From NCBI GenBank assembly GCA_003094555.1, contig NATW01000097.1, forward strand, positions 1 to 37,840: DNA of 37,840 bases, in the 5' to 3' direction. Under the pieces are notes generated by a model. That model saw only the letters and a list, made by a program, of their open reading frames with translations. It did not search any database and was not told the DNA's origin. Shown here in pieces: positions 27,526 to 29,933 of the stretch. Position numbers and translations under genes: made by a program. This DNA comes from a gamma proteobacterium symbiont of Ctena orbiculata (GTDB lineage: Bacteria; Pseudomonadota; Gammaproteobacteria; Chromatiales; Chromatiaceae). The stretch's first letter is position 1. Each line of letters begins with the position of its first letter.

Positions 27526-28299
27526 TTATGAGGCCTCTGCGGTCTGATCCCGTACCTGCTCACCGGTGCGACCAAAGCGTCGTTGTCGACGTGAAAAGTC
27601 ATGCAACGCATCTTCCAGGGCCTTGCGGTTGAAATCCGGCCAAAGCAGGTCGGTAAAGTAGAGTTCAGTATAGGCACACTGCCACAAAAGAAAGTTGCTG
27701 ATCCGTTGCTCACCACCAGTGCGGATAAACAGATCCGGTTCAGGTACATCGGTGAAGCAGAGGTTCCGGGATAGTAGCTCCTCATCAATCTGATCCGGTG
27801 ATAATTCACCTTGCTGCACCCGTTCAGCCAGGTGTTTTGCGGCCTGTGTAATGTCCCAACGTCCACCGTAGTTGGCAGCCACTTGTAACAACAAACCCTG
27901 ATTGGATGCGGTGCGGTTTTCAGCCTCGGCAATCTGTTCCCGGAGATTGCCGGGGAAGGCGCTGCAATCACCGATCACCTTGAGTTTGACATGGTTGCGG
28001 TCCAGGCGCCGAACCTCTTTCTTCAGCGACCTTAAAAACAGGTCCATGATAAGATTGACTTCCTTTTGAGGCCGTTGCCAGTTCTCACTGCTGAACGCAA
28101 ACAGAGTCAATACTTGAATCTGTCGTTCGACACAGACCTCGACCACCCCGCGAACGGCCTCCACACCTGCCGGATGACCGGCATAACGGGGAAGACCACG
28201 CTTTTTCGCCCAACGACCGTTACCGTCCATGATGATCGCGATATGCTTCGGCAATCGATTTTCGACAGGTACGGATTCCTTTGTCTTGCCGTTAGTCAT
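27526..28299 (-). CDS. uppS: Undecaprenyl diphosphate synthase
   Basis: The 257 residues carry the cis-prenyltransferase motifs: IIMDGNGRWAKKRG with the catalytic Asp25, FAFSSENWQRP, and RTGGEQRISNFLLWQ. It condenses isopentenyl units into the C55 carrier used for peptidoglycan and O-antigen. The start was set at the ATG at 28299 because the homologous protein begins there. The open frame continues 71 codons upstream, but those codons belong to the MITE-like element. The nearest SD-like bases are AGG only 3 nt from the ATG; the better GAGGA is now on the far side of the element. Expression may therefore be altered. Confidence 0.95.
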   Translation of the reverse strand: MTNGKTKESVPVENRLPKHIAIIMDGNGRWAKKRGLPRYAGHPAGVEAVRGVVEVCVERQIQVLTLFAFSSENWQRPQKEVNLIMDLFLRSLKKEVRRLDRNHVKLKVIGDCSAFPGNLREQIAEAENRTASNQGLLLQVAANYGGRWDITQAAKHLAERVQQGELSPDQIDEELLSRNLCFTDVPEPDLFIRTGGEQRISNFLLWQCAYTELYFTDLLWPDFNRKALEDALHDFSRRQRRFGRTGEQVRDQTAEAS

Positions 28300-28303
28300 T
28301 AAC

Positions 28304-28333
28304 CTAGGGCCTGTTAACACTAATCCGATAGGC
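28304..28333 (+). repeat. Left terminal inverted repeat of the MITE-like element
   Basis: Thirty bases starting CTAGGGCCTGTTAACACTAA and ending CCGATAGGC, the exact reverse complement of 28572-28601. It ends 4 bp from the uppS ATG on the minus strand. Confidence 0.95.
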
Positions 28334-28474
28334 TCTGCTGGGGCTTTTTTTTCGTCCAGCAAGGCAGAATGAGCGTAGTGTAGCAGCGCTACATGAGCGA
28401 ATGATAACGCCGCTGGGGGGAAAAACAGCCCCAGCCCTCCGGGTTGCGCCCCGAAGGAAGTGCCCTTGGGGTGC

Positions 28475-28490
28475 GCCTGAAAAAGCGCCA
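28475..28490 (+). repeat. Internal inverted repeat, left arm
   Basis: GCCTGAAAAAGCGCCA here pairs perfectly with TGGCGCTTTTTCAGGC at 28548-28563, with a 57-bp loop. With the terminal repeats it lets the transcript of the element fold into a long branched hairpin. Confidence 0.9.
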
Positions 28491-28547
28491 CTCGGTGTTG
28501 CTCGTCGCTCATTTGGAACTACCAAACCTCGCTCCTCGCGCCTTGAT

Positions 28548-28563
28548 TGGCGCTTTTTCAGGC
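28548..28563 (-). repeat. Internal inverted repeat, right arm
   Basis: Reverse complement of the 16 bases at 28475-28490; lies 8 bp inside the right terminal repeat. Confidence 0.9.
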
Positions 28564-28571
28564 ACAACAGG

Positions 28572-28601
28572 GCCTATCGGATTAGTGTTAACAGGCCCTA
28601 G
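28572..28601 (-). repeat. Right terminal inverted repeat of the MITE-like element
   Basis: Exact reverse complement of 28304-28333, ending in CTAG. The flanking bases outside the two CTAGs differ, so the repeat is exactly 30 bp. Confidence 0.95.
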
Positions 28602-28603
28602 AG

Positions 28604-28608
28604 TCCTC
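28604..28608 (-). promoter_or_regulatory. Displaced ribosome binding site of uppS
   Basis: GAGGA on the minus strand lies just upstream of the element. If the element and one CTAG copy are removed, the sequence reads GAGGACTCTAGGTTAATG, with 10 nt between GAGGA and the uppS ATG. That is a normal ribosome-site distance, and it is strong circumstantial evidence that the element is a later insertion. Confidence 0.6.
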
Positions 28609-28651
28609 AATAGAGAGTTGCAACCGGCGTGATGCTGTATACGGCCACAGA

Positions 28652-29209
28652 TTAGATTTCCATGAGGTCCTTCTCTTTCTCTGCCAACAGTTCCTCAACC
28701 TGTTTAATATGCTGGTCAGTCAGTTCCTGGATGACATCCTGACCACGATGCTCGTCATCTTCGGAAATCATTTTCTCCTTAACCAGGTCCTTGAGATCAT
28801 GATTGGCATCACGCCGGATATTCCGAACCGCGACTTTAGCCCCTTCCGCCTCATGCCGCACAACCCGAATCAGGTCTTTGCGCCGCTCTTCAGTCAGCGG
28901 TGGCATGGGAACGCGGATGACGGTACCGGCGCTCATGGGATTGAGACCCAGATCGGAAGTAAGAATCGCCTTCTCGACCACTGCCACCATGGGCTTTTCC
29001 CAAGGGACCACGGTCAATGTACGTGCATCCTCCACATTGATATTGGCGACCTGGCTGATTGGCACCTCCGAACCGTAGTAGTCAACCCGAATGTGATCCA
29101 ACAGACTGGGATGAGCCCTACCGGTACGCACTTTGGCCAATTCATGCACCAGTGACTCAACACTCTTGCCCATACGGGTTTTAGCATCTTTCTTAATGTC
29201 GTCTATCAT
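28652..29209 (-). CDS. frr: Ribosome recycling factor
   Basis: At 185 residues this is the same length as the E. coli protein when started at the ATG at 29209 ([13 protein letters not shown]). Conserved [14 protein letters not shown] and [10 protein letters not shown] are present. It splits post-termination ribosomes with EF-G. The ATG is one base after the pyrH stop, with GGGTGG as the ribosome site inside the end of pyrH. A GTG three codons upstream would overlap pyrH and is not needed. Confidence 0.97.
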
Positions 29210-29210
29210 G

Positions 29211-29933
29211 TCAGCCACCCTTTACCACTAGTGAACCAATCTCCTCGCCCTGCATCAAGCGCATAAGGGCTCCGGGATCATTGATATTCATGATGCGTAG
29301 CGGCATCTCATTGTCCCGGCAGAGCACGATCGCGGTTGCATCCATCACCTGCAGGTTTTCCGCTATTGCACGATCATAAGTCAATTGGGGATAAAACTCA
29401 GCTTGTGAATCCTTTACCGGATCAGCCGAATAGACGCCATTGACCTTTGTCGCTTTGATCATCAAATCGGCTTGAATCTCCACCGCGCGGAGACTGGCAG
29501 CCGAATCGGTGGTGAAATAGGGGTTGCCGGTACCAGCGGAGAGGATAGCCACCTTACCGTCTTGCAGCGCGCGTCGCGCATCCCGGGCAGTGAAGGTCTC
29601 ACAGACATCGGGCATCTGTAGCGCCGAAAATACCACAGCATCGACACCGGTCCGTGACAGCGCATCCTGCATCGCCAGCGAATTCATGACCGTTGCCAAC
29701 ATGCCAATGTGATCACCTCGTACCCTGTCAAAGCCCCCCTGGGCCAGACCCGCGCCGCGAAAAATATTTCCGCCACCGATCACCAATCCTATCTGAATGC
29801 CTGCATTCACCAGATCCTTGATCTCATCGGCAACCCGTTGCATGACAGCCGGGTCAATACCGAAATCCCCTCCTCCCATGAGGGCTTCACCACTGAGTTT
29901 AAGTAGAATGCGTTGGCAAATCAGATCAGTCAT
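29211..29933 (-). CDS. pyrH: UMP kinase
   Basis: This 240-residue member of the amino-acid-kinase fold has [14 protein letters not shown] at the N-terminus, [13 protein letters not shown], and the nucleotide-binding region [13 protein letters not shown]. It phosphorylates UMP to UDP and is normally hexameric, activated by GTP and inhibited by UTP. It lies 12 bp behind tsf and directly before frr, the usual order. Confidence 0.97.

Follow-up and report, generated by a model that had tools for sequence, protein, structure and literature searches.

A MITE of IS5 type interrupts the frr-uppS junction in the genome of a gammaproteobacterial symbiont of Ctena orbiculata. It has inserted at the TA of a CTAG there, in the orientation in which one of its two hairpin modules, module A, precedes the other along the direction of transcription. 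The window, by which we mean the whole stretch of 37,840 nucleotides that was analysed, corresponds to C97, one of the 193 contigs of a draft genome of 4.07 Mb (G000), and a second genome of the same species (G039) was available for comparison. uppS, a cell-wall gene that is normally essential, encodes 257 amino acids from its native ATG (27526..28299, minus strand; Pfam PF01255) and was found once in the genome. Its upstream neighbour on the same strand is an open reading frame from the ORF list (28652..29218, minus strand), which we take to be frr from its position. A sequence-only reading of this DNA had described a 298-bp segment with perfect 30-bp inverted ends and CTAG at both ends, 4 bp from the uppS ATG, and we could confirm all of these particulars: the segment spans 28304-28601, its outer 30 bp are perfect inverted repeats that include the CTAG (28304..28333, plus strand, on the uppS side; 28572..28601, minus strand, on the frr side), its 42-nt terminal arms are 90% complementary, and the uppS ATG starts at 28299 on the minus strand, 4 bp from the right-hand CTAG.

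While CTAG is indeed present at both ends, the duplicated target is TA rather than CTAG. TA flanks both sides of 37 of the 39 copies first examined and of 150 of 165 distinct copies, and its outer neighbours are not constant (C..G in 62, T..G in 32, C..A in 31, T..A in 17, other in 8), as would be expected of a 2-bp TA duplication within YTAR; this leaves as the element proper a core of 292 bp (28307..28598, minus strand, module A first toward uppS) with a target duplication at 28305..28306 on the uppS side and another at 28599..28600 on the frr side. Inside the core are two hairpins of like plan and opposite orientation, each recognised from an inverted repeat and covariation events: module A (28472..28566, minus strand; 22-nt arms 28545-28566 and 28472-28493) and module B (28337..28435, plus strand; 24-nt arms 28412-28435 and 28337-28360). 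A terminator-like hairpin with a T run lies on the strand opposite to uppS (28538..28553, plus strand), and a weaker terminator-like site on the uppS strand (28430..28443, minus strand). The element carries no transposase gene of its own, its longest frames being runs of 71 and 87 codons with no match to a transposase. The stems covary across the family, with 95 Watson-Crick to Watson-Crick events. Selection on the RNA was sought in wobble asymmetry and is not established, as G-U versus A-C events stood at 46:36 in the TIR stem and 40:48 in module B, with a modest excess in module A (74:40).

The element is one of many. The genome holds 81 end-like sites (no more than 3 mismatches in the 19-base end) against 0 for a reversed control pattern, so that the search for further copies with the same ends, proposed with the original observation, succeeded. 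By blastn there are 137 matches in the genome, with pieces and ends on both strands counted, and the five full-length copies closest to the one at uppS share 90-92% identity with it; G039 has 112 end matches. The family is present in all 22 Candidatus Thiodiazotropha genomes searched, these bacteria being symbionts of lucinid clams, and among the matches listed there are further exact ends, in contigs that carry the labels Sedimenticola, Thiohalobacter, Chromatiales and Thiotrichales. The whole element had no match in plasmids or in E. coli genomes, and phage matches to the end sequence were short only, with E about 5. Two plasmid matches, H1 (Proteus) and H4 (Thioclava), were rejected as relatives since each has only a single end-like sequence. 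As a short inverted-repeat element that is multicopy, is bounded by a TA duplication and is without its own transposase gene, it is rightly read as MITE-like.

By its ends, the MITE appears to be of IS5 type, and an IS5-type transposase is the candidate mover and its element the candidate parent. A search by end sequence alone led to an 805-bp IS5-family element on an Enterobacter plasmid (L247), which has the same outer bases as the MITE and CTAG on both sides; an N-terminal piece of its transposase matches NF033580 (110.4 bits, cut-off 110) and DUF4096. An intact relative of 808 bp with two overlapping ORFs was found in another genus of the same family (L255), with the ends GGGCCTGTTAACACTAATC and GGGCCTGTTAACACTAA. 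The ends of these NF033580/DUF4096 elements, GGGCCTGTTAACACTA, are identical to those of the MITE and stand in a CTAG context on both sides. In contrast to the MITE, which shares only the ends, the IS5-family relatives are 805-808 bp long and encode a transposase in two frames. In the genome that holds L255, a single weak match to the MITE was found, spanning half of its length at 72%. An insertion sequence with the same ends and a transposase therefore exists in a related genus, as had been looked for, but not in the genome itself: no such transposase matched in G000 or G039, so the MITE may now be without a helper there, and 2 of the 22 genomes of the genus have one, a decayed copy in G013 (L251) and an IS5 relative with one similar end in G007 (L250, L252). 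IS630, suggested by the TA duplication, was considered as a source and rejected, since DDE_3 was found in neither G000 nor G039 and in 3 of the 22 genomes, and the 4 DDE_3 loci of the genus showed no paired ends. These data thus indicate that a repeat abundant in the symbionts of lucinid clams descends from an IS5-type element.

At uppS, the element varies in presence between strains. We compared 31 uppS loci, from the genome itself, G039, 20 congeners and 9 more distant genomes, and the element was absent from the frr-uppS junction in all but our own. None of the outcomes named beforehand as telling against the insertion occurred, namely an element shared by the relatives, a single copy, or a start within the element in all homologues. 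In five congeners a single CTAG is retained at the corresponding place of the alignment, and the native uppS start is the same in G039 and the congeners. The G039 junction, GAGGACTAAATG, lacks the element and shows a short deletion there, and its flanks are 98.4-98.7% identical to ours. The element was thus either inserted within the species or ancestral and then lost in G039 together with a few bases. The deletion in G039 (locus L100, around 2270-2285) falls exactly at the insertion site, perhaps a mark of imperfect element loss. From the frr stop to the uppS ATG there are 352 nt, versus 52 in G039. This gap measures 28-52 nt in most of the other relatives measured, 226-227 nt in three congeners and 163 nt in two (L032-L036), the five long gaps having no MITE match. 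No consensus sigma-70 promoter was found in 28200-28750.

The insertion has parted uppS from its ribosome site. When the flanks are joined over the target, leaving one CTAG, they read GAGGACTCTAGGTTAATG and place GAGGA 10 nt from the ATG, just as had been claimed; at present this Shine-Dalgarno sequence lies beyond the element (28604..28608, minus strand), and an AGG 3 nt before the ATG is what remains (28303..28305, minus strand). The pairing with the anti-Shine-Dalgarno sequence is -5.9 kcal/mol at spacing 9 for the joined flanks versus -3.1 kcal/mol at spacing 1 for the UAGGUU now present, and the best present pairing within spacings 3-12 is -2.5 kcal/mol. Among 19 relatives scored in the same manner (G015 and G017 were left out), 6 had a site of -5.5 to -5.9 kcal/mol and 13 had one weaker than our remnant, so a weak uppS ribosome site is usual in the genus. 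Both the observation and its reading as a MITE hold up; the idea that the lesion is exceptional, in contrast, is weakened by this genus background and by other copies of the family that likewise lie close to gene starts. Judged by the sequences of the relatives, loss of the GAGGA need not cripple uppS.

The element would also change the structure of the uppS leader. To open the 25 nt surrounding the ATG takes 24.5 kcal/mol in the presence of the element, versus 8.9 in G039, 8.3 in G020 and 10.0 in G006, so that the output of uppS may well be reduced. The predicted folding energy of the transcript is -196 kcal/mol (z -10.3, with 0 of 100 shuffles as good). In the predicted fold the two CTAG copies pair with a probability of 0.97-1.0 and close the element between GAGGA-CU and GUUA-AUG; the GAGGA itself is largely paired (mean unpaired 0.14, opening 3.0 kcal/mol), as it mostly is in G039. 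Our favoured explanation, to which we give about an even chance, is that the insertion is tolerated and that UppS is still made from its own ATG, perhaps through a split ribosome site closed by the fold of the element. The folded element may present the displaced GAGGA across its base, where the paired CTAG copies would leave only CU and GUUA between GAGGA and AUG. Split sites are known from T4 genes 25 and 38, in which structure between the Shine-Dalgarno sequence and the AUG brings both to working distance (PMC3014915), and thrS of E. coli is another (PMC3936740). The arrangement is alike, with an RNA structure between the two signals that shortens their effective distance. In contrast to our case, in which a mobile element of 292 nt has a predicted fold, the T4 and thrS structures are much smaller and their use has been shown.

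A fold that rescues the start would by itself predict no orientation, because both ends are alike, yet near gene starts the element is strongly oriented. On either side of full-length copies we took the longest ORF nearby, with a minimum of 120 codons, and counted one case per distinct protein start; the set consists of the best-scoring copies among the matches listed, not a census, and the starts are ORF calls. Among the matches listed, a copy lies 2-15 nt before a called gene start in 44 distinct cases. Less than 15 nt from a called start there were, among the matches listed, 26 A-first and 4 B-first copies in the first set and 11 and 1 in a second batch of 51 new copies; pooled at 0-15 nt, again among the matches listed, the counts are 39 and 5. 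For ATG ORFs of at least 200 codons among the matches listed, A-first to B-first copies stood at 24:0 at 0-15 nt and 7:6 at 16-30 nt (Fisher 0.0007), at 18:7 at 31-100 nt and at 4:4 beyond. Also among the matches listed, the second batch gave 14:6 at 0-30 nt, which is not significant, gene ends within 30 nt gave 26:8, and same-strand gaps, which hold 60 of the 173 placed copies, gave 45:15 overall, 26:3 where both sides were at most 100 nt and 15:0 where both were at most 50 nt. The bias is thus strongest beside the start but extends past it, so that 15 nt is not a sharp limit. Of the 29 near-start ATG ORFs of at least 150 codons, 23 A-first and 2 B-first cases have Pfam support and the other 4 are without a family; Pfam likewise supports 6 of the 8 B-first ORFs at 16-30 nt, so that these B-first copies too lie before real genes. 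With the flanks joined, the ribosome site was stronger than the remaining one by at least 2 kcal/mol in 5 of the 44 near-start cases, all of them A-first and uppS included; of these five, Pfam supports two (uppS and L097), two have no family and the fifth was outside the Pfam test. A general attraction of the element to gene starts was not seen, as 51 of 142 element sides with an ORF have a start within 30 nt versus 625 of 1839 YTAR control sides. In the literature searched, we found neither this element family nor one-way placement at start codons. Among the near-start Pfam families are some that we read as cysS, holA and thiL; genes with the AIRS N-terminal domain (thiL on our reading) have a copy 12, 14 and 26 nt upstream in L332, L319 and L443, which are loci from different congeners.

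In our favoured explanation, the orientation would come from transcription. A simple scan of 188 copies placed terminator-like sites on the B-first strand in 84% and on the A-first strand in 12%, and such a B-first strand would favour A-first copies inside transcripts. We infer that transcription mostly passes an A-first element, whereas the opposite strand tends to stop it, and that a strong Shine-Dalgarno sequence is often missing at the uppS start in this genus; for these two reasons the insertion would be tolerated. The terminator reading does not fit neatly in every respect: of the 15 same-strand B-first copies, 10 persist despite a terminator-like site, and the uppS copy belongs to the 12%, having one on its own transcript strand. 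A hybrid promoter, with TTAACA of the element's end as its -35, was considered as the reason for the 15-nt limit and found doubtful: of the 73 sides at 16-100 nt, 16 had a -10-like hexamer with at least 4 matches, as had 4 of the 39 A-first sides at 0-15 nt, 6 of the 46 sides beyond 100 nt and 9% of 1630 control positions. It might, at a stretch, rescue B-first copies farther out.

The long and very stable stems (z -10.3, as above) invite a different account, in which RNase III or another RNase cuts them, so that the uppS mRNA would keep just a very short leader and be translated without a Shine-Dalgarno sequence. There is precedent in the cleavage of Correia elements by RNase III at their inverted ends and in the orientation-dependent action of ERIC through RNase E (PMC10969869, PMC3049150). 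However, the ends of our element are identical, and cutting would leave the orientation bias unexplained; we consider this account rather unlikely. A bolder claim, which we offer as speculation with the chances clearly against it, is that a mobile element has become safe at start codons, with A-first read-through and a closed helix that returns the Shine-Dalgarno sequence to the AUG, so that genes such as uppS would not be silenced by its entry into their ribosome sites, and that one-way placement within 15 nt would be the trace of this in the population.

Less likely again is translational coupling, by which a frame of the element that ends beside the ATG would deliver ribosomes to uppS. Such a frame exists, running open for 87 codons through the element (28304..28567, minus strand) to a TAG 4 nt before the uppS ATG; it is open for at least 60 codons in 79% of 137 copies, and the orientation bias peaks less than about 15 nt from gene starts. 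Against this, the frame is equally open on the disfavoured strand (82%), and the frame from the conserved ATG within the element often stops 57-228 nt before the gene. The sequence-only reading also pointed to an open extension of 71 codons, which is present: an ATG within the element (28510..28512, minus strand) is in frame with uppS, 71 codons upstream, and has a ribosome site of -6.6 kcal/mol at spacing 12. Pfam finds only UppS and no other domain in the extended frame. We consider it highly improbable that UppS starts there, and as a family feature a coding fusion was rejected, since the frame is open in only 41 of 126 copies, conservation at its codon positions (0.937, 0.895, 0.926) gives no codon signal, the gene offsets of near-start copies are spread over all three frames and the relatives use the native ATG; the extension is probably not a real part of the protein. 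That the element is kept as a cis regulator of uppS, for which its position and strong structure speak, we regard as scarcely credible in view of its presence at 1 of 31 uppS loci, the lack of any Rfam match at E up to 1 and the occurrence of the family before unrelated genes.

By description, the element resembles in kind the Correia, ERIC, RUP and BOX MITEs, which are likewise short, multicopy and non-coding with strong stems; BOX is modular, as is this element, and for ERIC an orientation-dependent effect on transcripts is known. In contrast, and again by description, their ends, modules and host groups differ from those reported here. Two strains with about 98.5% identity in the uppS region, yet with a difference of 300 nt of structured sequence between the ribosome site and the start of a normally essential gene, represent a natural experiment. 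With the orientation bias near starts, moreover, the tolerance of insertions at translation starts becomes testable, and we believe that this is the part most worth following.

Copies of the family vary in length in a regular manner. Among 137 copies of 255-350 bp, 69 are of 265 bp, 29 of 292 bp and 11 of 319 bp, in steps of 27 bp, and short derivatives and 29-bp remnants exist as well. Out of 17 copies of our genome checked against G039, 6 had both flanks among the G039 loci compared. Lengths differ in 5 of these 6 pairs: L004, L006, L013, L014 and L021 measure 292, 292, 164, 202 and 164 bp against 265, 265, 265, 345 and 345 bp for L348, L354, L359, L343 and L361 of G039, respectively, while in the sixth pair (L002, L106) only an end remnant is left. 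Rearrangement inside the copies, in place, is common. The 29-bp mini forms have TA on both sides (L083, L084, L101, L107, L202, L206 and others) and look like products of a collapse between direct GGGCC repeats, one located in an end and the other in the subterminal region opposite. The inner part of module A (within 28472-28566), GAGGAG..GTTTGG..CCAAATGA, is among the most conserved stretches of the 137 copies; its GAGGAG columns are 0.96-1.0 conserved, and the 17 of 137 copies returned by an exact-string regex are taken as a matching artefact.
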